NCBI RefSeq assembly: GCF_964355755.1
Contig: NC_092678.1
Span: 16,960,922 to 17,024,921 of the forward strand
DNA length: 64,000 bases
Origin: Antedon mediterranea
Lineage: Eukaryota > Echinodermata > Crinoidea > Comatulida > Antedonidae
Direction of reading: 5' to 3'
The first letter of the stretch is position 1. Each line of letters opens with the position of its first letter. The notes below the pieces were generated by a model, which saw only the letters and a program-made list of their open reading frames with translations, did no database searches and was not told the DNA's origin. Below, one piece after another: positions 936-31,710 of the stretch. The translations under genes were made by a program, and so were the position numbers.

Positions 936-1112
936 CTGTACCTTCGCTGTCTATCTGTTTGCTCGAAGCATGCCTAGCCAGCATTTGCGTCATAACAGGA
1001 CAACTTTCGGCGTAGCTGAATAAAGAACTACCGGCACGTTTAGCAAAGCCATTTGGCAGACGGCCAAGAAACGGGCACTTCAAACGAGCGACTTGATTCA
1101 TGGTGACACGTT
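936..1112 (-). CDS. ALAS: 5-aminolevulinate synthase, first coding exon (mitochondrial presequence)
   Basis: ALAS condenses glycine and succinyl-CoA in the mitochondrial matrix, the rate-limiting first step of heme synthesis in animals. Translation starts at the ATG at 1101 (minus) with MNQVARLKCPFLGRLP, continues with a serine/arginine-rich stretch and a second motif ESCPVM, and reaches ...SKQIDSEGT. The N-terminal KCPFLGR and downstream SCP motifs match the placing of the Cys-Pro heme-regulatory motifs in vertebrate ALAS1 (family knowledge). The exon is bounded by an acceptor with a T-run (TTTTTTCCAG, AG at 1114-1113), leaving 11 nt of 5' UTR before the ATG, and a donor ACAG|GTATGG after 936; an alternative donor GAAG|GTACAG lies 6 nt earlier. 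The catalytic domain is not in the window. Upstream lies the likely UTR exon at 7688-7838. The short length makes this a motif call, but two correctly spaced CP motifs right after a start ATG are distinctive. Confidence 0.82.
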
Positions 1113-2333
1113 CTGGAAAAAAAACAACAACACAATGTGAACAAATTTAGCTATTTAACTAATTTTTGAAATTTACAAACAATTTAGCTGCCAGTGCCAC
1201 AACTTCCAATAGTAGTTTCCTACTGTACTTTGGTTCCGAGGCAAACCAAACATTTATGTAGGGCAACTAAAAATTTAAATAAAATGGTCTGTCCCCCAGG
1301 CGAGCGAGTGCGATCACTCACCTAACAGACTCCTAAACTGCCCTTGAGGTGTGCGATTTAAAACACGCTTAAATTTGGTAAACTTCTATACACGAATTAT
1401 ATACAAACAGCACACCTACAACACCTCTGAATGTATTGAGGAGTGTAATTTGTAGCACACCTATAATTTTCAAAAGACAAGGCCTGACAACCAAGTAAAA
1501 ATTGACAATGGCTGTTTACATCTGTTGTGGAATATAATCAGTATCATCAGTCCAAAAATTTCAGTCACCATGTTTCAAGAAATTGAGCGGGGAACTAAAT
1601 CTCAGACTGGTTGTCTTAGGGCCGTTGGCTAGCAGAATTGTATTAATCAATTACTGGTCTATACTAATGTATTGTATTGTTTTTTAATTCGTAATTGTTA
1701 ATTTTTTAAGTAAATAATAATTACACAACAAATTCTTTAATTACAAATAAAAACCTCATTAATTGCTGATGTTTACAGTACTTACGATAAATATTAAACA
1801 TTAGGTAATATTATTAAACTCTGCCGACCACAAAGATAAGAGATGTTGAACCAAATTTAAAATCCAGTCAAATTATTCAGTAAGGCAACCGAATGGCAAG
1901 ATTGTAGAATAAACAAATTGAGTTGAAACTTCACAATACAACCTCATATACCACACACTAGTTAATCCTTTTATGACGCTTGTGAAGCATTGTCAATAGA
2001 AAAGGGAAAGAATACTGAGCTGATTTCTGAACAGGATGTACAGCCACATTGATAATACAGATTTAAAGCTGAAGAATTCAATGAAGGTACTGTACTTTAA
2101 AGGTGATTAGTATTATGAAAAAGATCAACCAATCAGTGACTGACAATTGATTAATCCACAGACAAGTACTGTACGTTATAGTACTGTACGTTATTCATTA
2201 TTTAAAGTGATCAACGAGGAAGTAGTTTTTATTGAGAGGAAAGGTTTTAGAACAATTTTGTTGAGGATATTAATTTCAATAAAATTTTGCAAATTTAAAT
2301 GAATCTCAATGATACTATTACTATGTAGATAAA

Positions 2334-2371
2334 GTATTTATTTATTTATTTTTATTAATTTATTTATTTAT
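2334..2371. repeat. (ATTT)n microsatellite
   Basis: An interrupted run of ATTT units is followed by ACACTATTTTACGAGGGTGG. It looks like the A/T-rich tail of an old retroposon, but no coding remnant is attached. Confidence 0.7.
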
Positions 2372-3848
2372 ACACTATTTTACGAGGGTGGTCCATCCAG
2401 CCGAAAATGATTATTAGGAACCCTCACAAAAATACAATGTCAATGTTCAATATTGAATATCGAAACGTGCCAGGCTGAAGGCGCTTGACCTTTGACAAGA
2501 TCGCCTAAACTTTTTAGTATATTAACTTTACAATACTTAGTGTTGTATATTCTGGTACAGCCGCTCCATAATCTCTTTGCTTTTCTTCCTTATATCTATA
2601 TTTTTTTCAATTTATACTAACATAACAAATGTCTTTTTATTAATATTATAATAATAATATATCAAAAATTATTTTAATAAAATTTTTCGCATAATATACA
2701 ATCTAAAGAACAGGGCACACAATCTACACATAATCAAACATCGTATACTCTATCTCTCACAATTTTTTCAATCTTCTATCGACTAAAGCCGAAGTATAGT
2801 CGTTATCTCGGAACCGTTCTATGGTTACCACCAGGTAGGCTTACTTCATTAAAGCTTCTATGAATGGATGTACTGGTTGGGAGCAGGAACGCTAGTAGAC
2901 AAAACCCAGTACCGTTTTGATTATGATCAATCGGGAAATTACCTCACGACATGTAACAATAAAAAATAAATAGAATTTAAGAAGATTAGAATTAGAATCA
3001 AAAAGGGAAATAAAAAAAAATAAATAAATTATAATAATTGCATTTTTTAAACAATTTAGTTGATTCTTTTGCTCATTATTATTGCTTTAATACCTTTAGC
3101 ATTGAGTCAGTTAGAAATGCACTCACATCACAGTATACATTCCCTGGTTCCATAATGGACTATCCAAATCGGAATTGTATTGAAATATGACCCCAAATCT
3201 GGGGTGGGCTTATATCAGAGAGTGGGATTACACCTGAATCAAAACAAGTGCAAATCTTTATGAATGATACTGTATGTAAAAATTGCTTTACTGTACTATC
3301 ACTTAACTTAACAAATACAGATGCCAAGATTACAGGTACTGTTCTACACTAATTGTCCAATTTGTTTGGTAGTAAAACATTTGGCATGACTGATTGTTAA
3401 AACCAAAATTGGACCGTAATAATATATTCAAATAAACGCCCCTGGGCGTTTACTGATAATGAGGTGTTTTTTTTTTCTTGGTGTAACATGTACAGTACAT
3501 GTTCTAATTAAATAAATACAACACAATTAATATAAAGAAATGATAAAATACAGTAACAATTTTAGGCTTGGTCAATTGATCATGGAGGTCAATGAATTCT
3601 ACTGCAAATGTGTTTTAACAATGTTGTGTATTTTGCATATGGAGAGGCGTTTATTCGAGTAAATAAACTTTCGGGGCATTAATTGAGGGGGGTTGTTTAT
3701 TTCAAATGATATTCTACAGTATGAATATGAGGGGTATTTATTCGAGGGGGGCATTTATTCGAATAAATATAGTACCGTGCAATTTATTCTTTTGAATTTA
3801 ATACAGAGAATACAGATGCTATAGATTTAAATAAAAAGTTATTATTAA

Positions 3849-4936
3849 AATGGACCTGAAATGGAATTTCGATTTTCAAGAAATTCACACATGTTATTTA
3901 AATGTATCAAATTAACACAAACCCATACAAATAAAAACAAAACGTATAGTATTTTGAGTAAAAACGAAATTTTAAGATACCATGGTAAATTAGCGAAAAT
4001 TACTCACGCCATTGCAATATTCTATTTCAACGGCCGTCGGAAGCCTCTATATTCACGACGTCACATATACACACGATGATATCGAGAGCGTGTATGCCGC
4101 CCGATAGTCAGTGAATGATCGACGGCCTGGAAAGATACGCGAAGCGTTGACACTAATACTAATTTATCGTTTGTTCTAAAACCCGAATTTAGAAGGCCTA
4201 GTACCTCCCAAACCTTTACTAGGCCTAGGCCCCCAATCCAGCACGCGGAGTCGATCCACCACCTACATCATGCGGCGAGGCTCCGTTTCATGTGCATCCA
4301 AGGACCAAAGCGATATCAACAACTTGCTGCGCTCATTGTCAAGCCAAAGTAAAATATGAATAAAATTCGTTTTCGAACTGCCTGATTCGTTACAAATAAA
4401 TTATCATCTCATATTACTAATTTAATTCTGCTAAACTAAAAACTAAAGAAACTAACACATTTTAGCAGTATAAATTACGAACGATATACAAAATACACGA
4501 ACGGAAAATATGGATACGCATCATTGCGCACGGAGCTGTATCCCCGACAACGTTGCCAGGCCAACTTCGGTATTGCCAGAAAAAAACCGTTGATTTTAAG
4601 ATTTTAAATCGTCATTTACTCGATGAATAACCGTCTATACGGTAATAATTTTATCTAAAAAAATTCTAAATACGTTTCTGCAAATGCACAAGCATTTTTT
4701 AGAAAATACTCCATAGATTTCAAGAGTTATAGCCAAAAAACTGCAAATTGTCCATTGGAGGGATAGGAATATATTCGCAAAGTGACGTCACCCGCGAATT
4801 TTTTTTATTTTCAAATGGGGCTTTCCCCAAAAGGGCCAATTTATATTTTGTAACAATATACATTCTAGCAACACCTAATAGCCCCCAAAACATCATTCTA
4901 AAATGAAAAAAATCGAAAATCCATTTCAGGTCCATT
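3849..4936. mobile_element. TTAA-flanked non-autonomous DNA transposon (piggyBac-like target site)
   Basis: The element starts AATGGACCTGAAATGG and ends with the reverse complement CCATTTCAGGTCCATT. Terminal inverted repeats agree for roughly 30 bp with a few mismatches. Both ends abut TTAA (3845-3848 and 4937-4940), the target duplication typical of piggyBac-type transposons. Length is 1088 bp. No transposase is encoded: ORFs at 3861-4079 (plus) and 4720-4935 (minus) begin in the inverted repeats and show no transposase motif. Superfamily assignment rests on the TTAA duplication only. Confidence 0.65.
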
Positions 4937-6297
4937 TTAACTTAAAATGGAATTCCTTTCAAAGTACTGTAGCTGAAGCATAACATAACAAACAAGACCA
5001 TAAAACTAAGTTTATTTACAGAATTATTCAGGACCAGTGATTAGTTGGAATCTATATGCCAGTGTACAATGGAAGGATAAAGTCTAACCAAATTTACTGA
5101 AGCATGACAATGCAATATCAGAATGACTAATGGTATTAACAAATCTATTCAGGGTAAATATAAAAGAATAGTGCCACTACCATGGTACTACCAACCAGGA
5201 AGAATGACAAGGCAGAATAACAAGGTGTGTCAATTACTGATAATGCAAATTATTTCTGCGTTTAACAACTTTCTTGAATTTTTCCCGATTTATTTTAGTT
5301 AATAAATTTAAATTCAAACCTAAACGTATTTAAATTACGATCTTATTTTTTATTACAAGATCAAATATAAAGTTTAACCAGGCTCTCTTATTTTATTTGG
5401 CTAATTCTAGGTGTAGTCAAAATATTTAATGTTGTTAGGTCTATTTTTTTAATCAACATCCCTTTAGATGGTAAAATAATGAGGAGGGACGCGGAGATTT
5501 TAACAAATTCTAAATGTTTTTATCAATTCCAATAAAAAAATCTTCTTAAAACAGAATATCTGGAACTATTATGTTGTGAGCCACAGTATTAACAATAAAA
5601 ATAATAACTGGTTTTGTGTGAACGATACTGTAGGTTTAGTTGGGCATAGAATCTATGCGATAGGGCTAGGTCTAGGGGCTTACATGGCCTAGTCATTATC
5701 TTTTTTAAATAACTAGGGCAGGCCCAGGCCTACTGTATAGCTTAATTGTTATTAAATATTATTAATAATAATATCTGAAAAAAAAAATAAATAGAACGAT
5801 TGTAAATGTTAATATGCTAATTATTAAGGTTGTGGACCTAATAACAACTATAGTCGATGCTGTAGGGAGGATGACATTTAATTATCAATTACATGATTTC
5901 AATGGACGGTTTTCATGCTGCTGCTATATAAGCCATCTTGCAGAGATGTCGTGACCAGCTAGCTGAGCGAAAAAAAAATAATACGATAGGGCCTAGGTCT
6001 AACGTTTTCAGGGAATTTCAGGACACCATGTTAACTAATTTAAATCCAGAATGGAAGGCCGTATGTTAAAAAAAATTACTGCAAAATGTTCTTGAAAGAT
6101 TGGCCTAGGCCTACAATGCATCACTGTATGATTGAAAAAATTATAAATATTGTTTTGAATGCCTAAAATTCACCGAAAAAAACACCACACAGTCTATAAT
6201 AATAAGTAGGGTCTAGGCCTACGTACTAGGCCTAATATTATAATAAAGCATAGATTAGTAGTTACTGGTAGGCACATACACTGACCACAAATTATTG

Positions 6298-7374
6298 GGC
6301 GCTAGTTCCGTTTCGCACCTGTCGTTTATTTCGACTCAAAATTAGTTAAGTAACTTTATCGTGAGTACCACACCTTAGAATTAAGCCTCTTTAATACTTT
6401 TACGAAGGAGATCACACAAAAAGTAAAATATAAATCCTTTAAATTGATGAATTTACTAGACGTATTTCTCGCACATCGCAGGGGAAAATTTCATTTTAAA
6501 ATTTTGTTTAGCAATATTGCTAATCAAACTGATTTTTGAGTCCAGAAACATATAGTTTTGTATTGTATTTTTTGCTACACAATTGTAGAAATGTGTAGCA
6601 ATAAGGTTGTTTTGTATAGCTTTTTGCTATGCTACACTGGCGAAATTATTCCCTGCATCGGTTCGTGAATTTCGCATACTCGATGTTCAATGTTGTTGTT
6701 TCCATGGAGCGCCAAAAGAGCAATCATAATAGAGGGCTAAAAACTCAGTAAATTGTGTATATTTAATGCATTTATTGGTGAAAATTATGTTCAATTTTAT
6801 CATATTTTGTCAATGCAACAAAAATATTACTGTTGATACTGTACATGGTTTTTTCAGGAGCTTTTAGTTAGGAATGAAAATCGACAAATTCATCATCATA
6901 TTACATGTACTGTAGGGGTATACCTTAATCTAAATAATATGCCTCTTAGTCTTAGTCTTACTCTTAGGTTGGTTGCTATTTGAAAACAGCAAATTATTAG
7001 CAGTAAAATGTTACAGCATTTTTATTGACAAAATATATTACAATTAAACGTGTATTTCAATAATAAATGCATTAAAAGAAGACGCATTCCACTGAGGTTT
7101 TAACCATCTATTGTTGTTGCTCTTTTGGCGCTCCATAGAAAGAAAAATATTGAACTTCCAGTATGCTATATTCGCGGCGAACGGTATGCGAGAAACATGT
7201 CTGTAAAATCATGAATTTAAGGATTTATTTGTTACTTTTTATGTGATTCTTCTTCATAAAAGTACTTATGAGGCCCAATTTTAAGGTGTGGTATTCACAA
7301 TAAGTTGCTTAACAATTTGGAGTCAAAAGGAAGTCGAAATAAAAACAGGTGCGAAACGGAACTAGGCTAGCGCC
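6298..7374. mobile_element. Palindromic (foldback) hAT-type MITE, copy 1
   Basis: The element begins GGCGCTAGTTCCGTTTCGCA and ends with GCGAAACGGAACTAGGCTAGCGCC. The arms are inverted copies several hundred bp long, separated by a short A/T-rich centre. An 8-bp direct repeat AATTATTG flanks it exactly (6290-6297 and 7375-7382), as expected for hAT transposition. No transposase is present. A sister copy with its own 8-bp duplication is at 27351-28448. Confidence 0.85.
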
Positions 7375-7687
7375 AATTATTGTCGCCCACCGTTTTCCGT
7401 GGTGCAGTTGCGCAAAAATCGTCTACCTAAAAGAATAGGGGTCTTGCTAGCTAGCAAGGGTGGCACACCTTGTTCTTAGTCATTTACTTTAGATAGTTGG
7501 TGGTCAGCTCACTCTCTCTTCCGATCCTCTCCGGCGGGCCCAGCTAGGTCCTAGTTATTAGCATACTAGCCTAGGCCTAGCTAGGCCTGATACTAGCCTA
7601 GCCTACTACCCGCCTACAGCAGGCAAAATAAACTACACATTTCAACGTTAAATATATAGCATGTGTATAAAATGTAAACTTACTTAC

Positions 7688-7838
7688 CGATTTAAAAAAA
7701 TATGTAGTTGAGCTTTAAAAAACGAAGTTTCGTGATCTACTCTGAGAACGACGAAACTAAAATTCTGGATTTCTCTTTTTTTTTAGACAAGTTGTTAGAA
7801 TAAAATTGAGGTTCAAAGAAGTTGCCAGTTTTAACTAA
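7688..7838 (-). other. ALAS: Putative non-coding first exon (5' UTR) of ALAS
   Basis: The left edge is set by a near-consensus donor (TCG|GTAAGTA, last exon base 7688). The right edge is estimated at about 7838 from a TATA box at 7864-7870 on the same strand. Nothing in between suggests coding on the minus strand. The exon contains an IRE-like hairpin at 7726-7758. Assignment to ALAS rests on strand, order, the free acceptor just before the ALAS ATG and the known link of IREs to ALAS messages; the transcription start is not visible directly. Confidence 0.55.
7726..7758 (-). promoter_or_regulatory. Iron-responsive element (IRE) hairpin in the ALAS 5' leader
   Basis: Read on the minus strand: an 8-bp perfect lower stem (AGTTTCGT with ACGAAACT), an unpaired bulge C, a 5-nt upper stem (GTTCT with AGATC, one U-U mismatch at its second pair) and the six-base loop CAGAGT. 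Bulge C, five-base spacing and a CAGWGH loop are the defining IRE features bound by IRP1/IRP2 (established). In a 5' leader an IRE would block translation when iron is low. It lies about 80 nt from the predicted cap and 38 nt before the splice donor. The mismatch lowers certainty of strong binding. Confidence 0.68.
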
Positions 7839-7863
7839 GATTCTCGCCCAATAAAAAATGCCA

Positions 7864-7870
7864 ATTTATA
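7864..7870 (-). promoter_or_regulatory. TATA box upstream of the ALAS leader exon
   Basis: The minus strand reads TATAAAT about 25-30 nt upstream of the estimated start of the leader exon. A reversed CCAAT-type ATTGG is about 15 nt further downstream. The call is positional only. Confidence 0.4.
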
Positions 7871-8370
7871 GAGGGCGTCAATCATTTTAAAAAACACATT
7901 GATAATCACTTAGTAACACTATGTAACATTATATCTTCATTTTTTTTTTTCATCCGGAAGTTTATAAACTATTTATTATTCGTTAATAATCGGCAGTATC
8001 TGTTAACGTTTTCAATTCAACCTTTTAATAATTCAGACATTTGTAGGCCCTTGAGAATGCATTCTATTCTTTTCAGTTATAATTAGAAAGTCGATCCTTG
8101 TCCTATATTATTCAATATCTCTGCCATATTCTGTAATCGTCTTTCTGTCTCTTCGTACATTTCACCGTTCGTAGTTTAGTATGTCTTCCCGAAAAGGGCA
8201 TCAATATTAAGACGAAATATTTTATTTACATCTAACTACAGAGCCTCGATAAGCATTTCACCAGACAATATTATAGGACTAAAAAGTACAACAAAAAAAA
8301 CTTTACCAATTATATTTTCACAGCAATGATTTATTTCAATCAAATATTAATAAATGTTCACACAAAGTAA
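7871..8370. other. Intergenic, no feature seen
   Basis: A/T-rich sequence with no convincing ORF, splice-bounded exon, repeat border or RNA fold. Confidence 0.5.
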
Positions 8371-8701
8371 AGCTCATGGTTCCCACAAAAGACGCAATGC
8401 AAGGAGGATAGGCCTATAGGTAGAAGCAAAGCAAGTGAGTTGACCAATCACACAAGCGACAGTAGAGTTCGAATAACCCATCGCTTGTAGGCTAATATTG
8501 GTTACATTGTTAACTTTTAATACTGATTTTATGTAAATGCAATACTTTCAGCTTCTGCTGCTTTTTGTATATGTGTTTTTTATACCGAAAAAAAAGTACA
8601 TAGGCTGGATGCAAGTGAGTTGACCAATCACAAAATCCATCACTTGTGATTGGTAACTAACGTTGCGCTCTGTGCATTGCGTCTCTGTAGTGGAACCAAG
8701 C
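8371..8701. mobile_element. Short MITE with inverted ends
   Basis: The left end reads GGTTCCCACAAAAGACGCAA and the right end is its imperfect inverse, TTGCGTCTCTGTAGTGGAACC. A 21-bp direct repeat starting GCAAGTGAGTTGACC occurs inside at 8431 and again at 8611. The terminal motif resembles the element at 47659-47856 (ATTCCCACTAGAACGCAACG). The target duplication is unclear, so exact ends are approximate. Confidence 0.5.
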
Positions 8702-10068
8702 ATAATGTACCAAGCATTTCAAGCATGTTCACAGAATCTTCACCAGACTATACATTGATACGGTATAACAATTAATCACAACATGATAAAGCAAACAAAG
8801 TTACAGATCGGGGTTGATGAAATATGTCATTATACCGGTACGCGTTTAATTTGTCCATTATAATGTTGTTGTGGACAGTAAAACACCAATCTATTTACTT
8901 TTATTCAAACACTTTCCAACAGGAACAATGTTCCCACTTACAGGTGATGTTATATAAAAAATAAAATATAAAATATATATGTATATACTCAAAAGCACAT
9001 TACTCCCATAACGGTATTATAATGGACAGGTTCACCAACCCTATGGAAATTACATTATTACATTAAATCAAAAACTCTTGTATGGTATAGTGTTAACAAT
9101 AAAATTCACAACAATTACATCAATATTTTTTAAAAGGCTAAATAAAATAAGTATTTAAGTTGTTTTAGTTTTTTTTTCTAAGGAAATAATTAGATGAGAA
9201 TAAAGGCGGCTTCTCTCATATAGTGGACCGACCACAGTGTACACGGCAAGTAAGTAGCCTACCGTACTGTTTGTCTATTCGTCAGTATTGGTCATATTAT
9301 CCGATATATTTTGGTACCAACAACGTTAAACGAACGATAGAGGTCATAGGTCAATTATTACTAAATTACTGAATTTGCACTATAATAACTATATATCTCG
9401 TCAGCCAAACAAATCTTGAAGCAGATTCATGTTTATGTTCATGTTAACACATTCGTTATATGCATACAGTATTATCAACTAAGTTATTAACATTAACACT
9501 TATTTAGCGATATAGGCCTACATTTCTATAGATGAAGCACATATCAGCGGCGCTTCACATACTGTAATAATATTATTTGAAAAAAAAAGGTTTTAATTGA
9601 TTTTTAAATTGTTAATTTATATAGATTATAGTAATCCACATTGTTAATATTACTTGGCAAATTGCAACGGAAAACGAGCGGTCAGCAAATATTTTCGCAT
9701 AACATCCGTTGCACTGCCAAACCGACCCTCTAGAAAAAGAAACCTAAACTATCTTTAAAAGAAGTCAGATAATCCCAGGGGGCTTTATATCGATTGTGGG
9801 CTTCTTTTCGAGATTACCTTTTCAAAATAAAGAGTGGTTTCTTTTTAATTTGTTATTTTGGGAGGTTGGCTACTTACGAGGTCGGCCAGCCTATATAGCT
9901 CTTGAAATTCGTTTTTCTTTAAAAAAGGAATTTCATCAGTGGGGATCGAGATACAAAACAATTATAGTATTTGTTTTATATGGCCTATGAAATGTTCATA
10001 ATAATAATAACTTTATCTTCATTTTAATGAAAAGCGATCATTAATTATAATAATATAGTATATAGTGT
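8702..10068. other. Intergenic, no supported gene
   Basis: A/T-rich, with short microsatellite-like runs. A plus-strand ORF at 9796-9990 has no recognisable domain and no start context or splice partner that would support it. Confidence 0.5.
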
Positions 10069-10830
10069 ATAGTACTTTATCTATCAAATCTTACTTACTA
10101 ATACAATATAACAATACTAATACAATTCACCAAACAACATCCATGTATAGGTATAATGAAATAAGCCAACATCAATTGAAATATAACAACATCGTATCTA
10201 CCAAATCTTACATAAAACTAATACAATCCACCAAACTACATCGATAAATGTATAGGTTATATTAATGAAATAAGCCAACATCATTGAAATAAATACTACA
10301 TCTTATCTACCAAATCTGACAAAACTAATACAATCCACCAAGCTACATCCATAAATGTATAGGTTATATTAATGAAATAAGCCAACATCAATTGAAATAA
10401 ATACTAAACTAATACAATCCATCAAACTACATCCATAAATGTATAGGTTATATTAATGAAAAAGCCAACATCAATTGAAATAAATACTAAACTAATACAA
10501 TCCATCAAACTACATCGATAAATGTATAGGTTATATTAATCAAATAAACCAACATCAATTCTTACATAAAACTAATACAATCCACCAAACTACATCGATA
10601 AATGTATAGGTTATATTAATTTAAAAAGCCAACATCAATTGACACAAAACACAATCTTATCAGCCAAATCTTACATAAAACTAACACAATCCACCGAACT
10701 ACTGTAAATCGATAAATGTAAATGGTAATATTAATGAAAAAGCCAACATATACACAGAAATAAAACATCATCTTATCTACCAAATCCACCCAACTACACT
10801 GTAAATCAATAAGTGTAACCGTATAATTAA
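10069..10830. repeat. Minisatellite, units of about 108 and 82 bp
   Basis: About seven tandem units share the core AAATGTATAGGTTATATTAA followed by AAGCCAACATCA. Successive AAGCCAACATCA cores are spaced roughly 107, 108, 82, 85, 80 and 114 bp, so full units alternate with shorter ones that lack a CTTATCTACCAAATC segment. The last units are more diverged. No coding potential. Confidence 0.85.
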
Positions 10831-12453
10831 AGGCCAGGTGCGGGCAAAACAGTTCTATTGATCATACATTCCAATAATTATCGATCTATAGATTCCCCTA
10901 TGTTTCATACTTTTTGGGATTTTATTTGTGTTACACAAGCGAGTTGAAAATAAGCACTTTCTTATCAGAATCTTTATTTGCAGATAGTTCTAGTTCATGA
11001 CTTTTCCGTTACCTAAGTCAGGCCTATAAATACAGTTAATTATTTCTCAAAATATAAAGTATGTTATCTATTTGTAGTAAGTCGGATGTATGTATGGATA
11101 TACGGATCGGATAGAAACAGAAATATGGAATTAAAGTCCTCAATATTGAATATTGTTTTTGTGCAGAATTACATGAAGTACCATTTGGAAAAAACAATCA
11201 TTGTGGAATAAATTGATTGTTGAGATAATTAAGGGTTGTAATGTCATTAATATATTGATATGAAAACATGATCATGCATTTCATTTTGCCAAAGTAGTAG
11301 ACAAGAAATCCAAAATGCAATAAAAAAAAAAACATTTAGAAAACAATGAACAATGAACACGATTACATTATTAGTCTTCGTCTGGAAATTTCAGAGGAAA
11401 CCTTATTTTTAATTTTTACAAGTTGTACACAAAGCCTTATCGACAAACAGTGTATTTCGGCGAAAATTACCATGGAAAGCAGAGCGTATGTCTGCCACTT
11501 TCGCTAACCAGAAGCCGATAGCAAAGACGAAAGTATCCGTGGCCATCTTGGTTGTAACGTTGTTAACGGATTATATGCTTTATCGCCTTCTCATTTCAGA
11601 AATCAGGAGCCATGGTCTGCAGAAGAAAAAAACAACGTAAAAACAAATATTAAAAATGGAAAGAAAATTAGGAATCATAATTTTTACCGATTGTTGCTGT
11701 TGTTTCCGATAATCATAATGCGTTTCTGTTCAGAAACGGGGTAGTGGGATAATCCTGAGAAAATGATAGGCCTCGTTTTGGATTTGTACAATTGCCTACA
11801 TGTTCACATGCAAAAAGGTATGAGCCAAGCCGGACCTTCCCACTGAGCATTTACACGTCACGCGAAAAGATTTGCACGAAGCTAGACAAAGTTCTATCGA
11901 TTTCGCGGGTTGCAAATTCATCGCTTTAACCATGGAGGTATACCTCCATGCTTTAACTGAAAATCCACTGACGTTCAACACAGGCATGGGAACGGTGAGA
12001 GGGAGGACAATTGACCTCCCAAAACTTAAATCATGGGATGACAAATAAAAATAGCATTTTAAAGAGATTTCTTTTCAACAACATATTCTTATAACTCCTT
12101 TCGCTCAGCAATACAAACATGATAATATAATAATAACAGCCAGACCGAAACAATGCGCTTGTCGCGAGAAAGGGTTTTCTGTAAAATGCTTCTGAATTTG
12201 TAAAACTTAATGGAATTGGTATGAATGTTCTTTTACCGGTCACATTATTGTAACTGCTTAAATATAAAAACTAAAAAAAAACACAATGTTTGTCTATAAT
12301 ATACAGAGAATATATAGAGAGAGATGTAAAGTGTACAGCAGAATGAAATAAATGACCAAAAAAAGAAAGAATAAAATGTTACTTAGTAGGTGGATTGTCA
12401 GTGTTAAGGTAAGATAACACAGTGCTGTGTATTCATATACTACTGTACATTAC
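10831..12453. other. Intergenic; only weak ORFs
   Basis: Minus-strand ORFs at 11796-12044 and 12031-12243, and a 38-codon plus-strand ORF starting at the ATG near 11932, have no domain I recognise. G+C is locally higher at 11460-12030, which could mark an exon or promoter, but I cannot assign one. Confidence 0.4.
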
Positions 12454-12607
12454 CGTAAAATCTTCAGTGTTTCTTGTCGAATCCGTCGGACACATCAACT
12501 CTCGGAATTTTCCCTTTAATATTTCTTTACATGCTGCAAGGGTAACTCTCGGCTCGCAGACTTCAATTTTATAAACAAGGCAGCAAATGCGGCGATGATC
12601 CGATTTC
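12454..12607 (-). CDS. Exon-like ORF, unknown product
   Basis: An open stretch of 51 codons is bounded by an AG acceptor (ACCAAAAATAG) and a GT donor (TTTTACG|GTAATG), phase 2 in and phase 0 out. The peptide is Cys-rich and basic, including RRICCLVYKIEVCEPRV, LAACKEILKGKF and ELMCPTDS, with five cysteines. I do not recognise the family. The acceptor has a poor pyrimidine tract. No neighbouring exon of the same gene could be identified, so this may be a chance ORF or an isolated exon. Confidence 0.3.
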
Positions 12608-12998
12608 CTATTTTTGGTGATGTACAAATAAAAACATGATATAGTTATTCACTTAGACCATGGATCAAGAAAAAATAATAAATTTCCTGAAAAAACTGTA
12701 ATTTATTCAGATTGGCGTTTATGTTTTATAACTGAAAACATTTGTTTTTTTTCCTTATATTTTTAGTAGTAAACTTTATTCAAACTACAAATGACCTATT
12801 CATTTTTTATGTTTTTTTGTACAATACACATGTTATCGAAATATCTTGCTATATATCGACATAGTAATTCGATAACGATGTCTTACCTGAATATACGTTC
12901 GTACTTTTAAGTCGATTAATTTGATTAGATTTAAGTTATCTTATATCTTATGCAAAATTCATGTTACGAATGAGAGTACGTTTATTGTAAATACATAA

Positions 12999-13132
12999 TA
13001 TAAAAATAACGCTTAAAAGAGAACGACGTTTCGACTCCATCATGGGGTCATTATCAAGTCCATTGATAATGACCATATTATGGAGTCGAAACGTCGTTCT
13101 CTTTTAAGCGTTATTTTTATATTATGAAATTC
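12999..13132. repeat. Near-perfect 130-bp palindrome
   Basis: The left arm (AATAACGCTTAAAAGAGAAC... then GACGTTTCGACTCC) is repeated inverted in the right arm around a centre at about 13065. Each arm also holds a TTGATAATGACC / GTCGAAACGTCG pair, a layout like that of hammerhead-bearing Penelope-like terminal repeats, but the hammerhead core (CTGATGA) is mutated to TTGATAA. Probably a foldback remnant. Confidence 0.75.
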
Positions 13133-14067
13133 ATGTTTTTAAGTTAATTTGATTAAAGTATGTGACCATCGGATCAATAATCAATATCAATGTAAACTTT
13201 ACACCGACTTGTAGGTTCATGTTTTTTATATTAATTGTATATTAATATATTGCACACTTTTGACGATGATCTTAGCTTTAAAAAACCATGTGAATACTTA
13301 CAATTCGTTTATGTTGATCAAGTTTTCAAAAGTACTATCTTTGTAATTTTTTAATTCGTTGTCATATATCCAACTGCAAAAAAACATTTTAAAATAAAAA
13401 TGAGTAAAAGATTCAGTGGTGTTAGGTCATGAAGAAATTTCTCATTCTTATGTCTTTAGTGGTTTACTAACTTGGACGTAACGCACGGACGCTGTAATAC
13501 AAAAATAGGTCATCCGAACTGTTGCTTTTGATTGAAATATATACAGTAGTTCATTTTAGATATTATATCTAAGCATATATTACTATTATATTTACAATAA
13601 TTTAAACTAATTTCTTTACAAAACAGACAGATTTAACTACAAGTTATGACTTCATACTGTAATTTAAATATGATAATATAATATAATATAACATGTATAT
13701 CTATCCGTGCCACCACCACCACCACCAACCATTAATTAAGGAGATATGAGACTTCAAGTGGTAAATGGCGATCATTTTGAATTTATGTTAATTAACCCAA
13801 TTTCCTTTTGGTAAACTTTAGATATGATGTTCATTTGGACCATATCAAGCAAACAAAACCAAACAAAATTGTTGTTGCAATTTGTTTTAATGTTGACTTA
13901 TCTTTACTGGACAAAGATACAATGACCTCATGGCAATGTTTTAAAGACGCCGTTGTGTGCTCAAATGCGCGTTCATGTCTAAAATATGGCACTGATGTTA
14001 TGTCATTTTAAAGTAGACTTAATGGTCAAACATCATATTTAAAAAGAAACAATGTAATGTTTAGTGA
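13133..14067. other. Intergenic, no supported gene
   Basis: A/T-rich. A plus-strand ORF at 13808-14011 has no recognisable domain. A short CAC-codon-like run (CCACCACCACCACC) lies at about 13711. Confidence 0.45.
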
Positions 14068-14863
14068 GAGAAAGGTTGTAGTCAAGAGGCAGGAAACTGC
14101 AGGTGTTGTTTATTGCCTTTAGACATAAACAGGTACCACCGTACGAGAATCGGGTGTCCAACGGACGAGTACCATGTGTGTATATCGGGAACAAAGCTAT
14201 TATAAAGTGTACAGATTTTACAGACTATGTCTACGACACATAATCTGTTGTATGACAAGAATTAATGAATGAGTCCGATAATTGTACAGAGCATCAAACA
14301 ACTACATGCAGATTATTAAACATTTTGACAAACATAGCGTTTCATACGTATGGTAAGTGTACACACTGCATAGAAAACATCGAAACGCGACAACAGAAAA
14401 AAGACAATAACAGAGACTTGGGACAAGTCTACACAGTATTAACTTACAGTATTGAAAGTGATGAAGCAAAAGCAGAAAATGCACCTTGATCTATGGTAGT
14501 TATAGCGTTATCGTTTAAATACCTACAGATATTGAAAAAAAAAGACACACATTTCAAACGGATTGATTTAAAACAATATTAATAATAATACTGTACAACA
14601 ATACAATAAATAGATAACCACTACATTTGTCTGCTATATTTCACAGTACAGTTATTTGTATTCAGCATTTCAGTGGGCGATTTAGACTTCGTTTGACACT
14701 CGAAACAATGTCAAATGAAAGGCAAGCTAATATTGCCATGAGGAGGTGCAAATCTGAGGTAGAGGGGAAAATGTAATGTGTACAAACAGATATCACCTCA
14801 CCTTTATTTATAAAAGTTGAAAATCAGAAAAAAGGGGAGAATGTAGTGTATTATTTTTTGTTG
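14068..14863. repeat. Dispersed repeat A, copy at 14 kb
   Basis: This stretch starts GAAAGGTTGTAGTCAAGAGG and matches almost base for base 38708-39490 and 44587-45640 (the latter with a SINE inserted). It is cut at the right by the poly(T) start of the minus-strand LINE at 14864. Small ORFs here recur in the other copies only because the DNA is duplicated. Confidence 0.8.
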
Positions 14864-15235
14864 TTTTTTTTTTTTCTCTTTTGTGGCGCAAACACCACTT
14901 TTATTCACATTCATATTATCTCATATTACATAAAATCGTATTATTTAACTTGTAAATGTCGTTACAGTTCATAAGTAACATTTTTAAATATATGAATTCT
15001 GTATTACTCCTTTTTTCATTAATTTTCGTATATTTTGTTATACACTTGACAGGATCATCATTGTCATCTATCCCGTTTTAAAATAGTTCACACATTTTCA
15101 TTTGTTTGTTTTCATTTTACAACCCGGATTATACAATATATTTATATACATGATAAAAAAAACAATAATAACTCAGTACCACCAGTAACCCGTATCACTG
15201 TAATTCTTTTTCGGTTAATCGTATCAAATTAGAAA

Positions 15236-16071
15236 TTATATTATCATAATCTTATTTCTTAAAGCTACCCATTTTTCTATACTTGTTTCTTTATTGTTAT
15301 ATGTTTCACATTCAATGTTATATAACATATTGCTTTTAAATGAATTCCATAAAGATTTACCCACTGGCTTATTTAGTGCAGATAACATTTTTATTCTATA
15401 AATAGTAAATGCTGCAAAAGTGTAAATATAATCTATTAGCTTATCTCCCGTTCCTAGTATTAATTGTTTAAATGATATATTATTGTGATTTAAACTTACA
15501 AAGATACTAAGCATTTTCCTCCAATATTTCTGAATAAATCTACAACTAAAAAACAAATGATTTTCATTTTCAATTTCTCCACATTTGTCACACGTTTGTG
15601 TTTCCTTAACTTTCCACTGATACAGCCGTTTGTTGGTAGGCAGTATTCTATGTAACATCTTATAATTGAATTGTGCTAGTTTCTTATCTTTCATTTTACA
15701 TACTTTCCGTAACCAAGAAGTTTTCCAATCAATGTTGTTATCATTGAAGTACTCTTCCCATTTTAGTTGTGACATTGGAATAATGAAATATTCTTTCACA
15801 AACCATGAGTATATTAGTTTGGTAGTATTAATCTCATACTTGGTCCCAACTAATTCATCATTATCATCACAATTGAAAATATCTACCTCCTTAATAATAC
15901 GTTTCCATTGAATTGGTATTGCCTTAATAATGCACAAATACTCATTTAACCAGTTTGTTTTACATTGTAGTTTCACCAGTATTTCGTTTGATGTTAAAAA
16001 AGTGTTCTTATTAACAATGTCTTTAATACTGATAATGCCACTGTCAATCCAATGCTTGTAGAAAAGCGATT
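15236..16071 (-). pseudogene. L1/Tx1 ORF2 C-terminal region
   Basis: This segment continues in the same frame as 16109-17008 after the stops at 16072-16111, and the longest open run is 15236-15976. It contains the retroelement C-terminal Cys-His motif CDKCGEIENENHLFFSC (C-x2-C-x7-H-x4-C) near residue 130 of the open run, preceded by the basic segment RILPTNKRLYQWKVK. In L1-like ORF2 proteins this region follows the RT thumb and helps bind RNA (family knowledge). The protein ends at a TAA at 15236-15238. Confidence 0.8.
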
Positions 16072-17057
16072 TTTTTTTTTAGTTTAACGTAGTGGTTTCC
16101 CCAAAGTTTCAGGTTTTTTTTTTAGAGATTCTGTTATAATTTATGTAGGCTTTTATCATATTTTTGTAAAACAGTGGAATTTTATCAGAATTAACATCAA
16201 TAATGTTATAACATGACATATTAAGTAAAACATTAACATCACATATTTTTTTAATATAATACATTGGAATATTTTTCCATTTAGCACCATCATCATTAAT
16301 AATTCTTTTTAACCAGCCACACATGAGTGCGTTAACATGAAGAGTAAAATCAGGCATTTTAATGCCTCCCATCTCAACATCACCAATTAGAGTTTTTCTT
16401 TTTATCTTTTTCCTTTTATTGTTCCAAATAAAATTATTTATTAGATTTGTAACTTGTGTATATACATATTTTGGAACATCAGTGATATTTGCAGCATATG
16501 TTAATTTAGATAGTGCAAGACTTTTCAGGATTATTATTCTACCAAAAATTGAGAGATTTCTAGCATTCCATTGTTTTAAAGTCTTTTCTAGCTCTATTAA
16601 TTTAACATCCCAGTTTTTTCTGGTACATTCTTCTGTATTATATCCTACATATATGCCTAAAATTTTGATCGGGTGTTTTACCCAATTTAATTCTAAAGGT
16701 CTATCTATTCTGTTCTTCCATTTACCAATCCAAAAAGCATTGGTTTTTTTTTTATTTAGTGTCATTCCAGATACTTCACAAAAACGTTCAATTACACTGA
16801 CTGCTGACTTAATACTTTTGTCATTACCAACATACAAAACAGTATCATCGGCTAATTGGCTTATTCTAGCTTCTATGTTATTTTCATTATTTGGAAGTTT
16901 AATACCCTTATAGTCATATTTGTTTCTTATTCTAGATGCCATTACTTCAACCACTAAAATGAATAACAGAGCAGATAGAGGACAACCTTGTCTAATACCT
17001 CTTTCCATTTTAAAATTGTTTGAAACCCAACCATTGTTAACTGTGACACATTCAACG
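16072..17057 (-). pseudogene. L1/Tx1 ORF2 reverse transcriptase, central part
   Basis: Reverse transcriptase copies element RNA into DNA at a nicked target. Motifs in order: GIRQGCPLSALLF (RT block 4), LADDTVLYVG (catalytic block 5, an ADD box with Leu in place of Phe/Tyr), LNKKKTNAFWIG and LGIYVGYN (blocks 6-7), then the long thumb with WNARNLSIFGRIIILKSL and FIWNNKRKKIKRKTL, the order seen in L1/Tx1 ORF2. In-frame stop codons (TGA at 16109-16111 and a TAA near 16079) end this part. Its upstream end abuts the hAT insertion at 17058. Confidence 0.88.
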
Positions 17058-18921
17058 CAGTGGTGGCGCCAGCGGGGGGGGCTACGGGGGCTCTAGCCCC
17101 CTCGTCGGGGAGCCTAGCCCCCCCCGTCGGGGAACACGGGTACTTTTTGTCGGGGAATATAACATACAGTAAAAAACGTTCGCGTTCACTTCATATAGCT
17201 TCAGCGCCTAGAAAACCACGACGTTCCATTGACCGTGAGAGTACGTCAGAGGGCTATTATGCACTTTTATGCATTCATTATTGCCAGAGATCTAACTACT
17301 AAACAATAGCTATAGGTACGCACTTGTCTGGCGGTATCCCTTTGTACGAATCGTTCACCGTTGGGTGAGACGCGTGATATCATGTTCCATCCAGGGACCA
17401 AAATGTGTAATGTAGTTATTTTCCAGGCGAAGTTTTACCGACGGTTACCAAAGGGAACACGGGTACTTTTTGTCGGGGAATATAATATACAGTAAAAAAC
17501 GTTCGCGTTCACTTGGTAGCTTCAGCGCCTAAAAAACCGCGACGTCTCATTGACCGTGAGAGTACGTCAGGGTGCTATTATGCAATTTATATGCATTCAT
17601 TATTGCCAGCGATCTAACTTACTACTAAACATTAGCTAGGTACGCTTTTGTCTGGCGGTATCCCTTTGTACGAATTGTTCAACGTTGGGTCGAGACGCGT
17701 GATATCAAGTTCCATCCAGGGACCAAAATGTGTAATGTATTTATTTTCCATGCGAAGTTTACCGACGGTTCGGGTACTTTTTGTCGGGGAATATAATTCG
17801 TTCGCGTTCACTTCGTAGCTTCAGCGCCTAGAAAACCTCGACGTTTCATTGACCGTGAGAGTACGTCAGAGTGATATTATGCACTTTATATGCATTCATT
17901 ATTGCCAGCGATCCAACTTACTACTAAACAATAGCTATAGGTACGCACTTGTCTGGCGGTATCCCTTTGTACGAATCGTTCAACGTTCGGTCGTGATATC
18001 ATGTTCCATCCAGGGACCGAAATGTGTACCGTGTAGTTATTTTCCAGGGGAAGTTTACCGACGACGGTTACGTTGTGTACTGTGTCGACGTACGCTACAC
18101 TACAGCAAAAACAAATTATGTTAATTGTTCGTATGTTCACCAATTTTTTAATTTACAAGTAACCTTCTGTACCGTGGGGCACCTAAAATAAATATTTCAT
18201 CTATTACTAAACAAAAAACATGCCATTTTCGCTTAGCCAACATCTTATTATAGCTAAGTTATTAAATTTTCAATGTCCTGTATGTCATGAATTTCTCACC
18301 ACTCCAGATGGTACGCAGGCATACACTTGGGAGGAATAAACTTATTTCCCCGACTAAAAAGGTCTACGCTTGCGTTTTTTAAGCCTCTGGGCCTGATGTT
18401 TCCAAAGTATAAAATGCAATTTTTTGAAGACCACCTGCAGCTCTAGTTTGAAACATTTTCTTAGCTCAGCCCCAACAATAAAGCTGATCATATTTCGAAG
18501 TACAAGAAGTGTATTTTCCGGGACCTAACATCTCTATTTTTCAAACATTTCTTAGCTCAGTCACAACCATGATAGGGACTTATATATTTTGTTTCATGTT
18601 TTGAAGTATAATAAGTCCAGGACCTCCAACTCTATTTTTCTAAATTTTCTTTGAACTTTTATTTTTTAAATTGAAAAATATGGATTGAAACAGTCATCGC
18701 GCATCGTTTTTTTGCACGCAGTATTTTATTTATGCATTATAAAAAATGGAAAAAATGGCTACCCTAAATTTGATTAAAATGACCTCAAATGACGCTAGAA
18801 CGCGTTGCTTCGGCCCTTGGCGGCCCCCTGGCCCCCAGCCTTGTGTTGCTCGCTTCGCTCGCATAGCCCCCTCGTCGGGGAATGTAGCCCCCGCGTCGGG
18901 AAGATCCTGGCGCCACCCCTG
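17058..18921. mobile_element. Non-autonomous hAT element inside the LINE
   Basis: The ends are CAGTGGTGGCGCCAG and CTGGCGCCACCCCTG, inverted copies with one mismatch and typical hAT CAG...CTG termini. The 8-bp duplication ATTCAACG sits at 17050-17057 and 18922-18929. The 1864-bp body has G+C-rich ends repeating a CCCCCTCGTCGGGGA hairpin and three tandem internal units, and no transposase. Removing it with one duplication copy (1872 bp, divisible by 3) would leave the LINE frame continuous, so it inserted after the LINE. Confidence 0.9.
17138..18075. repeat. Three tandem units of about 315 bp inside the hAT element
   Basis: Units begin GGGTACTTTTTGTCGGGGAA at 17138, 17461 and about 17772, and run through TTCAGCGCCTA, GACCGTGAGAGTACGTCAG and GACGCGTGATATCA to a GTTTTACCGACGG end. 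The third unit is slightly shorter. Internal tandem units are common in non-autonomous hAT elements. Confidence 0.85.
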
Positions 18922-19200
18922 ATTCAACGTTATTGTATAATACTTTTACCCAGTTACAAAAGAACATTCCAAAGTTAAACTTTTCTAGAACATTGAACAT
19001 AAAATCTCTACTAATAGAGTCAAAAGCCTTCTTAAAATCTACGGTAATTATTGCCCCTTCGATATCATTATACTCTGTATAATAAAGCAGGTCTTCTATT
19101 AACCGAATGTTTTCACCAGCGAAACAGCCTTTTTTATAAAACACGATTTTGTGCCATAACGGATTTCTACAATCCGCATTATTTATAGAATTTTCCTAAA
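18922..19200 (-). pseudogene. L1/Tx1 ORF2 reverse transcriptase, N-terminal RT piece
   Basis: The peptide contains KKGCFAGENIRLIEDLLY (RT block 2, the gate region) and the catalytic block 3 VDFKKAFDSISRDF with the first Asp. It ends ...FFCNWVKVLYNNVE at the hAT border and continues in frame at 17057. The LINE breaks off at about 19200, a typical 5' truncation. Confidence 0.85.
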
Positions 19201-19712
19201 AAAAAGCTATCATTAGAATTAAAAATATTATTTGAAAAAACAGATGTGGTTGTAAGATTTGTTTAATTATTGAGAAAGCATACAGTTTGATAATGTCAGC
19301 CATAATGTACATTATGGTAAATATTTTAGAGATAGAAAAAGATCAATAAAATAGATCGACAATATGCAAATCCTTGTTTATTCTATAAATTTATAATTCG
19401 CTATCATTTTTATAATTATAGAAAAAAACATACTAGCTTTTTTAGGTTAAAATATACTGTCCGTTTTCCAAAACAACAATAGACATTACACAATGAGTTT
19501 TGTTCGGATTATGAGCTTCTTATTTAAACTAGGTTTAATGTGCAGAAACTGCTTTATTTAATTAAAAAATAAATGGTATGGGCCAAAAAAATCTTTATAA
19601 TGTCCATTTTTTTCGCGAAGTACACACAAAGCAAAGAAAACAAATTTTAATAACTGCAGAATATTTTTAATTTTTAATCATTCATTGTTTTAATACAACT
19701 TTACTATAAAGT
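19201..19712. other. A/T-rich spacer, no feature seen
   Basis: No ORF, repeat border or RNA signal that I can support between the LINE and the satellite. Confidence 0.5.
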
Positions 19713-20262
19713 TCATCTACATGGTCATAAACATTATGACTACAGTATATGGTTGAGCTATTGTTATAAAAACTACATGGTCATAAACTTGACTACAGTA
19801 TATGGTTGAGCTACTGTTATAAAAACTACACGGTCATAAACATTATGACTCCAGTATATGGTTGAGCTATTGTTATATAAACTACATGGTCATAAACTTT
19901 ATGACTACAGTATATGGTTGAGCTATTGTTATATAAACTACATGGTCATAAACTTTATGACTACAGTATATGGTTGAGCTATTGTTATACAAACTACATG
20001 GTCATAAACATTATGACTACAGTATATGGTTGAGCTATTGTTATATAAACTACATGGTCATAAACTTTATGACTACAGTATATGGTTGAGCTATTGTTAT
20101 ATAAACTACATGGTCATAAACTTTATGACTACAGTATATTGTTGAGCTACTGTTATACAAACTAGATGGTCATAAACTTTATGACTACAGTATATGGTTG
20201 AGCTATTGTTATATAAACTACATGGTCATAAACTTGACTACAGTATATGGTTGAGCTACTGT
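19713..20262. repeat. 56-bp satellite, about 10 units
   Basis: Unit core: CATGGTCATAAACATTATGA then CTACAGTATATGGTTGAGC and TATTGTTATA. GGTCATAAAC occurs ten times about 56 bp apart; a few units are 52 bp through loss of ATTA. Each unit contains the small inverted repeat TCATAA...TTATGA. The array ends about 120 bp beyond the stop codon of the DUF7869-like gene. Confidence 0.92.
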
Positions 20263-20381
20263 TATATACAATTATGAAATTGGTTGAAAATTAAATAATT
20301 TTTTTTAGATTCATTATACATGTAAAATTCCATTAATGTGCACCCTATTGTGACAACCAGTGAGTTGTAAAACTCCCTGCA

Positions 20382-21032: not shown

Positions 21033-21447
21033 CTAAAAAAAAAGAGTACGCATTAGTTTTAAAAAGTAAATAATATACATTCATACAAAATATCATGATA
21101 TATTTATGCTGAGGTGTTTGTTGCATAAAAGCTGGGCCAATACATTGCGCACCATGCTAATCAGATGCTGATTGATTGATTTTATCTTATGAATTAATCA
21201 GGAGGCATGTTTCTCCAGTGTACTCCACTAGATATCGATCATGTTATTTGATAATTTTAGGTTCTCACATAAAATGATCAGTGGAAGCATGCATTGGTGA
21301 ATGTGACCCAACATAGTTGTGTGGAGTAAATAGTTGAATTTTGGTATAGCTGCTGAATCTATACTAAAATCAAAATTCTCTTGTTAACCAAAAAATATAT
21401 GTGTAAAATGGTGAAACATCACACATGCAATGTAGTACAGTACATAC

Positions 21448-21964
21448 CTTCTGTGATCTCTTCTATATTATTTAAAAATTCCTCCCACCAGTCACGTTCT
21501 TCTATTCGCAAAAAATTTGCAACAGACGCCAGACTTTTTTTTAACTTTGGTATATCTGCATTACTAAAATCAGGAGTACACAACACTGGTATATCAGCAG
21601 GGCTTTCCTTGAGCAAATATGGAAGTGTGTCCATTTCTCTTGCACATTCACACCAAGTACAATCCGTTGACCAGTTCTTATAGGACATGATGCATTTTCC
21701 GGTTTGAGCCAAAACAAACTTAAACTGGTGTGGTTTGCTGTGGTAACGTATGTCTTGCATGTATGGTACTAACCAGTTCTTAATGTCATGCAGATAGGAA
21801 ATGATACTTGATGTAATCGGCAACTTTTTGTACGAGTTTTCAACAGCACTTCGAAGATGATCAAGTGTAGATGCTCTATATTTGTTCAGGTATTTGGCCA
21901 CACATGAAAATAATTGGTCAATATCCTCGTGAGTGTGACCCACCATTAAAAACCCAATCTTTAT
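21448..21964 (-). CDS. DUF7869-like gene, GHTHEDIDQ core exon
   Basis: Acceptor TACTCTTTCAG, donor GAAG|GTATGT; phase 0 in, phase 1 out. The exon begins IKIGFLMVGHTHEDIDQLFS, the hallmark I associate with DUF7869, and continues through a helical stretch and a CxxC-containing segment (TDCTWCECA) to EEITEG. The acidic residues of HEDID are candidates for the third catalytic position of a DDE-like core (inference). Confidence 0.75.
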
Positions 21965-22277
21965 CTGAAAGAGTAAAAGAAGTAATGATTTAAAATTAAA
22001 ACTTTTCAAAGCAAAATAAAAAAAATACATTTTTAGTATATTTCCATTTTTTCCTCATCTAGTTAGACTAGAATGTTATTGAATATTTTATGTCTTTAGA
22101 TAATTACCAATAGTAAATTAATTACTGTCCTATTAGGCTGGTGGAAATCACCCAACACAGGGGATATTTTGTGGTGAACGAGAACAGGGTAAATGAATGA
22201 TGAACTGGGTTCTTTAAAGTGCACTGTGTATACTGTTTTATTATTTATATATCATTTATAAATGTATAGTCATTTAC

Positions 22278-22672
22278 CTTTCGAAAAATCTTTAACGCTA
22301 CAAGAAGAGCACATAGGGCAAAAACAAATCTGTTTTTATTATCCTTTCCGCTATTGTCCAACTGCAGATATAAGACTGGTGGTAGAGGTTGTATCTCTGA
22401 CAGCACCGTCAGTATAATGTTGCAGGTTAGGTTTGAGTCATGTGGAAACTGCTTTAGGTCAATGAAGCAGTGCCCATGTCGCCCATGTACCAGAACACCA
22501 GTTACATGTGTGGCTAGTTTCCACATCTTCGACGTTTCTTTTGATTCGCAAGCAAAAGATGGTAAATCAGTCTTGCTTTGGTCCATTCCATCGATAATTA
22601 TTGACAAATACTTGTTGGGATTCTGTCTTGCTTTCTGCATAATTATGTTTATAGTACTTTCGACGTTCAATA
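22278..22672 (-). pseudogene. DUF7869-like gene, core exon with a 1-nt frameshift
   Basis: Acceptor AATTTTTCAG, donor GAAAG|GTAAAT. The frame set by the upstream exon (phase 2) gives IERRKYYKH at the start, as the family pattern expects; the downstream frame gives QKARQNPNKYLSIIIDGMDQ and the rest through LQLDNSGKDNKNR. The two frames are offset near 22627-22640. The exon is 395 bp where phase 2 to phase 0 needs 394, so one inserted base explains it. Either the gene is dead or this is an assembly error. Confidence 0.72.
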
Positions 22673-23144
22673 CTGAAAAATTAAAATCATATGTTTATAG
22701 TTTTATTTTGCATTTAATAATAAATTTTTGTTTTGTTTAGTTATATGTTATCTATTAGCCGATGACAAGATGAGACAATGCTTTACTTCTAATCTATTAA
22801 AATTATTGATTAAATGTAGAGGTTTTTTATATAATAATGATTTTGTTTATCTTTTCTCTTTTTTTGTTTACAACCACTTTTATTCATTCATTGTTCATAC
22901 ACAATAATTATTTTCATTTTCTACCATTTTTCCCCGTTATTTTCTGTTTTATTTCAATCACTCTTAATTTTATTAAGTTAGAATTATTTTTAAAAACACT
23001 AATAATACTATAGAGGAGGTATACAGTGGAAGCAATAATTATTTTTCCTATCTATGGTAATACCGGGTATACAAGTTCAACAGAATTTCTTGTTGAAAGG
23101 TTTAAACTACTGGTTTTGTACACAAAATAGGTAGGCATACTTAC

Positions 23145-29784: not shown

Positions 29785-30300
29785 TACACTGTTAAAAAAA
29801 TTCTTATAAAAAAACTGTAAATTACTGGCAATCTGGACGCCAGTTATTTACCGTAATGTAGAATTAATTACAGGTACTGTTGAAAATAAATTACTGTAAA
29901 ACTACAGTAAATTACTGTTGGTCATAAAGTCGGTTGTCTACCGTAATGTAGAATCACAGGTACTGTTGAAAATAAATTACTGTAAAACTACAAATTACTG
30001 TTAACTTGAAAGTCGGATGTCAACTATAACGTAAAATCACAGGTACCGTTTCTAATAAATTACTACAGTATAATTACTGTTAATCTGAAAGTCTGTTTGT
30101 CAACAATAACGTAAAATCACGGGTACCATAAAACTACGTAAAATTACTGTCGATTTCAAAGGAAGTGGTCTACCATTAATGTAGAATAATGTTGATAAAT
30201 AACTGTAAAACTACATTAAAATTACTGTAGATTTCAATGGTCAATGGTAATGTAAAATCACAGGTACCGTTATTAATAAATTACTGTAAAAGATTCAGTG
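29785..30300. repeat. About six degenerate units of 80-90 bp rich in ACTGTAAA
   Basis: Units contain AAATTACTGTAAAACTAC and GTAGAATCACAGGTACTGTT. The same array recurs at 31199-31710 with over 95% visible identity, so the block was duplicated recently. Confidence 0.8.
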
Positions 30301-31198: not shown

Positions 31199-31710
31199 CC
31201 TACACTGTTAAAAAAATTCTTATAAAAAAACTGTAAATTACTGGCAATCTGGACGCCAGTAATTTACCGTAATGTAGAATTACAGGTACTGTTGAAAATA
31301 AATTACTGTAAAACTACAGTAAATTACTGTTGGTCATAAAGTCGGTTTTCTACCGTAATGTAGAATCACAGGTACTGTTGAAAATAAATTACTGTAAAAC
31401 TACAAATTACTGTTAACTTGAAAGTCGGATGTCAACTATAACGTAAAATCACAGGTACCGTTTCTAATAAATTACTACAGTATAATTACTGTTAATCTGA
31501 AAGTCTGTTTGTCAACAATAACGTAAAATCACGGGTACCATACAACTACGTAAAATTACTGTCGATTTCAAAGGAAGTGGTCTACCATTAATGTAGAATA
31601 ATGTTGATAAATAACTGTAAAACTACATTCAAATTACTGTCGATTTCAATGGTCAATGGTAATGTAAAATCACAGGTACCGTTATTAATAAATTACTGTA
31701 AAAGATTCAG
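31199..31710. repeat. Second copy of the ACTGTAAA-rich array
   Basis: Near-identical to 29785-30300, with a few substitutions (for example a 1-base change in CCATACAACTACG versus CCATAAAACTACG). Confidence 0.8.

Follow-up and report, generated by a model that had tools for sequence, protein, structure and literature searches.

A probable iron-responsive element in the putative leader of an ALAS gene from the crinoid Antedon mediterranea

The window, i.e., the whole stretch of 64,000 nucleotides analyzed here (C9:16960922-17024921, in a genome of 354 Mb and 18 contigs), carried on its minus strand a hairpin that is probably a weak-to-moderate iron-responsive element (IRE), as judged from its sequence, in the putative noncoding first exon of a 5-aminolevulinate synthase (ALAS) gene. 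The more specific reading that it is an IRE of the erythroid ALAS2 type, lying in the noncoding first exon of this very gene, is favored here, with reservation. Such a hairpin is no rarity genome-wide, yet it is unlikely to occur by chance at exactly this position upstream of ALAS.

The ALAS gene and its putative leader

The ALAS start exon began at 1112 on the minus strand and further exons of the gene lay on that strand at C9:16945343-16950362. Ten coding exons joined in frame to give a protein of 606 aa, whose best PDB match was human ALAS2 (625.5 bits). The Pfam matches Aminotran_1_2 (239 bits) and Preseq_ALAS (39.7 bits, cut-off 21) supplied both the catalytic domain and the presequence expected of a 5-aminolevulinate synthase, and on its protein sequence the gene is a genuine ALAS. 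The original prediction that the encoded N-terminus bears ALAS1-like Cys-Pro heme motifs was borne out by the translation and the presequence match, with KCPFL at residues 8-12, SCPVM at 33-37 and, encoded by exon 3 beyond the window, a second KCPFL at 60-64. Both KCPFL motifs, and not SCPVM, fit the HRM_t pattern [NKR]-C-P-[K or hydrophobic]-[LM] of PMC3904948 (2/3). A single ALAS gene was counted in the genome, because profile matches on C7 and C10 were taken to belong to related enzymes within its fold family. One intron of the gene held short tandem repeats, such as those of YGSDMPK, that stay open in several reading frames (L004:2215-5353; C9:16956714-16959852), and the segment containing them recurred about 1.3 kb further on.

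Elsewhere in the window, LINE-like pieces of reverse transcriptase interrupted by stops were found at 15236-19195 (-) and 52036-52413 (+), with RVT_1 matches of 60.2 and 31.2 bits and a zf-RVT match of 35.4 bits. Two DUF7869 matches (114 and 124 bits) at 21419-22694 (-) probably belong to a mobile-element gene. A 56-bp tandem repeat occupied 19717-20268 (ten copies, 94% matches), and two 83-bp arrays, at 29866-30127 and 31270-31539, had one unit in common.

Table 1. Features of the putative ALAS leader and of a rival first exon in the window.
Feature	Position	Strand	Basis
IRE-like hairpin (bulged C at 7750, loop CAGAGU, lower stem of 8 bp, four of five upper pairs)	7726..7758	-	sequence, fold, scan, chance rate, ALAS2 stem similarity
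Putative noncoding exon 1	7688..7836	-	start guessed from TATA box; end at donor TCG/GTAAGT
TATAAA box	7865..7870	-	sequence; one of 30 TATAWAW sites in 1113-20000 on this strand, hence weak
Putative intron 1, 6575 nt, GT...AG	1113..7687	-	donor and acceptor read directly
ALAS exon 2, with 11 leader nucleotides before the ATG (1101); encodes presequence with the first KCPFL and SCPVM	936..1112	-	reading; Pfam Preseq_ALAS
Rival promoter and first exon: TATATAA from 1403, donor TAG/GTGAGT, last exon base 1322	1322..1403	-	donor score 6.64

The features of the putative leader are collected in Table 1. Human ALAS2 likewise has a noncoding exon 1. Direct reading placed TATAAA at 7870-7865 (-) and the last exon base ahead of GTAAGT at 7688; the original prediction of a TATA box and a strong donor was therefore right as to presence and place, and neither signal proved distinctive. 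By a position weight matrix the donor scored 5.1, ranking 22nd of the 3685 GT sites of the whole minus strand, and six of the 1118 GT sites in 1150-20000, itself counted, equaled or exceeded this score. The rival donor at 1322 outscored it, and further good donors occurred at 6319, 6374, 12887 and 14802. The spliced leader of 160 nt would be devoid of ATG, an absence seen in 5.7% of 3192 minus-strand windows of that length. Among 48 ORFs of at least 45 aa on both strands of 1113-9500, the ALAS start exon was the only one recognized by eye. The distal exon was favored because of the hairpin and the ATG-free leader, and the scan described below gave no IRE-like hairpin in the rival region 1322..1403. 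The splice from 7688 to 1112, which we infer, is the weak link of the IRE reading. Just within the putative intron, at 7560-7625 (-), was a patch of near-palindromic repeats of the CTAG/AGGCCTAG type.

Cap positions were predicted by counting 30-34 nt from each TATA, which set the hairpin about 80 nt from its cap, versus 16-20 nt for this animal's own ferritin IRE. The start set by the TATA box is a guess, and if transcription began closer to the hairpin the difficulty of cap distance would disappear.

Structure and chance rate of the hairpin

Read in minus-strand order, the hairpin consisted of AGUUUCGU (7758-7751), C (7750), GUUCU (7749-7745), the loop CAGAGU (7744-7739), AGAUC (7738-7734) and ACGAAACU (7733-7726). 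All eight pairs of the lower stem were Watson-Crick (8/8), C7750 was unpaired in the predicted fold, as is expected of the bulged C at position 8 of an IRE, and the loop allowed the cross-loop pair between C14 and G18 (PMC8466369). The AGU at positions 15-17 that Volz 2021 expects was replaced by AGA, with A17 for U17. The original description of a perfect 8-bp lower stem, bulged C, CAGAGT loop and distance of 38 nt to the donor, on the strand of the ALAS start exon, agreed with direct reading; it had passed over a U-U mismatch at the second pair of the 5-nt upper stem, in which four of five positions pair.

The computed fold had the shape of an IRE. A 38-nt piece folded at -9.7 kcal/mol (z -2.25), equaled by 2 of 200 shuffles, and a 51-nt piece around the hairpin gave z -2.22, equaled by 6 of 200. 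In the putative 148-nt leader the hairpin was retained in both the minimum-energy and the centroid structure, and the leader overall was no more stable than its shuffles (z +0.61; 145/200 as good).

Chance occurrence was estimated in order-1 Markov sequence with the dinucleotides of the window, counting hairpins with a C bulge, a CAGWGN loop, at least four upper pairs and at least eight contiguous lower pairs. Hairpins of equal or better quality numbered 37 per 4.07e9 simulated positions, which corresponds to 6e-5 per 6575 nt (the distance from the ALAS acceptor to the proposed donor), 0.0012 per window on both strands and about 6 in the genome. Smaller runs yielded 6 hairpins in 480 million positions and none in 20 million, and relaxing the criterion to five lower pairs raised the expectation to 7e-4 per 6575 nt and 0.014 per window.

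A scan for IREs covered 323,270 strand-nt from 13 sources with the 17 SIREs loops and a loose filter. Four matches passed the filter, and only two had the full lower stem, namely the ferritin leader and the hairpin upstream of ALAS. A weak match near the second ferritin locus (L006:2681), with a poor lower stem, no evident leader and a fold z of +0.31, was discarded. Upstream of mitochondrial aconitase, ferroportin and SDHB, where up to 10 kb before the first profile match was covered, and in the 7.1 kb upstream of IRP1, no hairpin passed the filter; the leaders of ferroportin and SDHB may lie outside the region scanned.

Rfam gave no IRE match at the hairpin with E up to 10. In a genome-wide search with RF00037, in which 82 of 122144 candidates were scored, the matches listed included two weak ones (L001, L002) and missed both the ferritin and the ALAS element. 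The silence of Rfam was counted neither for nor against the hairpin, because Rfam was nearly blind to the ferritin IRE of the same genome. The IRE_I model seems ill-suited to the IREs of this animal, in that the canonical-looking ferritin element (L005:7190-7260) reached just 13.2 bits against a gathering score of 34.

One IRP-type gene was found. Fourteen of 15 profile matches were on C2, and the fifteenth was the mitochondrial aconitase locus; the joined pieces scored 1305 bits against human IRP1 and 170 against mitochondrial aconitase. The residues S371, K379 and R269, which contact the loop (Volz 2021, PMC8466369), were retained as S, K and R in an alignment whose chain numbering was shifted by one. 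On C1, a ferritin gene had a TATA box and an IRE with a C bulge, 5/5 upper pairs and a CAGUGA loop, all ahead of the ATG. With an IRP1 gene and a ferritin IRE both present, the genome therefore holds the IRE/IRP machinery.

Alternative explanations and a possible mechanism

The hairpin could have arisen by chance upstream of an ALAS gene that has no IRE, the true first exon lying elsewhere, e.g., in the stretch of about 1372-1322 that follows the TATATAA at 1403. The better donor at 1322, the other good donors and the abundance of TATA-like sites are in keeping with this, as is the lack of an Rfam match, and a U-U mismatch together with A17 is what a chance hairpin would show. The whole window was searched first, which makes 0.0012 a fairer expectation than 6e-5 if no gene is assumed, although 0.0012 is itself a small number, and the gene downstream of the hairpin on the same strand is one where an IRE is expected. 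The likeness of its stem to that of ALAS2 and the leader without ATG also speak against chance, which is considered a rather unlikely origin.

Alternatively the exon may be real and the IRE decayed, i.e., inherited by the ALAS gene with its binding of IRP1 no longer useful. Here authorities disagree on CAGAGN loops. Volz 2021 finds only U at position 17 in functional IREs, considers A17 non-functional, and lists a five-base-pair upper helix as a criterion, with exceptions allowed (PMC8466369); a published human TFRC hairpin also has the loop CAGAGT (PMC2413145), and according to Volz 2021 it is no IRP1 site (PMC8466369). In SIREs 3.0, by contrast, CAGAG(A/C/U) is classical motif 2 (PMC12230718). 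Decay would agree with A17, the U-U pair and the distance from the cap, an IRE shifted away from the cap having shown partial derepression in a mammalian reporter (PMC6721798). Set against it are the classical standing of the loop in SIREs and the perfect lower stem and C8, which appear to have been maintained, and decay is regarded as less probable still than a chance origin. That the hairpin is another thing altogether, such as a repeat fragment or a miRNA-like precursor, seems highly improbable: cmscan matched mir-4875 on the opposite strand, but its 16.5 bits are far under the gathering score of 90, and a genome search with 7600-7900, in which very common words were skipped, returned the window alone.

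Under the favored reading of an ALAS IRE, exon 1 (about 7836-7688) would be joined to exon 2 (1112) across an intron of 6.6 kb. When iron is scarce, IRP1 without its iron-sulfur cluster would sit on the bulged C and the CAG of the loop and slow initiation. Repression would be partial, with scanning hindered more than loading of the 43S complex blocked, because some 80 nt would separate the hairpin from its predicted cap. When iron is plentiful, the cluster would be loaded, IRP1 released and ALAS produced, and heme could then restrict import via the Cys-Pro motifs. A graded effect at most is expected, given A17, the U-U mismatch and the cap distance. The full proposal, that a natural IRE with A17 and a U-U pair works far from the cap in an ALAS leader, giving a graded iron response by hindered scanning and a product with heme motifs, is tentative and open to considerable doubt. 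If such an element does work, the AGU rule derived from mammals would not be valid for all animals, and if the hairpin is an IRE its A17 loop would offer a natural case for the dispute over whether CAGAGN loops regulate.

Comparison with known IREs

Among eight IREs compared, a set that leaves out the DMT1 and TfR1 sequences of PMC12845348, the upper stem of the hairpin was nearest to that of the human ALAS2 (eALAS) IRE (sequence in PMC12845348 and PMC2413145). Seven of ten bases were identical (G-C/U-x/x/C-G/U-A), versus 5, 5, 2, 2, 2, 1 and 0 for the other seven IREs. A random hairpin would reach 7/10 against ALAS2 with P = 0.004 under the composition of the window and P = 0.014 under even composition; the probability of at least 7/10 with one or more of the eight was 0.11. 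ALAS2 was the predicted match, and the stem likeness was therefore counted as moderate support.

Both elements have a bulged C and a loop of six bases in which positions 14-16 are C-A-G and position 18 is G, and both lie in the leader of an ALAS gene, a putative leader in the crinoid. The loop is CAGAGU here and CAGUGC in human ALAS2, and the second upper pair is U-U here and U-G there. The lower stem of the crinoid hairpin is longer and perfect, whereas its predicted cap is farther off; its gene has ALAS1-like Cys-Pro motifs, and its splice to the leader is predicted. With the animal's ferritin IRE (L005:7216-7242) the hairpin has in common the C bulge, a CAG-W-G loop and a leader behind a TATA box, and the two would be targets of one IRP1. 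The ferritin IRE differs in its CAGUGA loop, its fully paired upper stem and its nearby predicted cap, and five of ten upper-stem bases are identical between the two.

The combination of a predicted IRE with heme motifs in invertebrate ALAS has been in print since 2014, and the hairpin described here is probably a further example. Tzou 2014 (PMC3904948) predicted IREs in the ALAS 5'UTRs of tunicate, sea urchin, sea anemone and honey bee, with counts of 1/2 in non-vertebrate chordates, 1/1 in echinoderm, 1/2 in arthropods and 1/1 in cnidarian, and reported HRM_t in 3/3 chordate and 2/2 echinoderm ALAS. The same source predicted IREs in three of four teleost ALAS1 5'UTRs, which runs counter to the original statement that among vertebrate ALAS genes ALAS2 alone carries one. 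A literature search for further ALAS IRE sequences returned none beyond those of PMC3904948. If the IRE reading is true, this crinoid would add one more ALAS gene where iron and heme control may meet, and its genome, in which one ALAS and one IRP-type gene were found, would support a double control predating the split of vertebrate ALAS1 and ALAS2, in line with the proposal in PMC3904948 that a common ancestor had both IRE and heme motifs. The crinoid gene resembles the invertebrate ALAS genes of that study in that an IRE-like hairpin goes together with Cys-Pro heme motifs near the N-terminus; the 5'UTRs there were sequences collected as such, whereas the leader here was deduced from genomic DNA.
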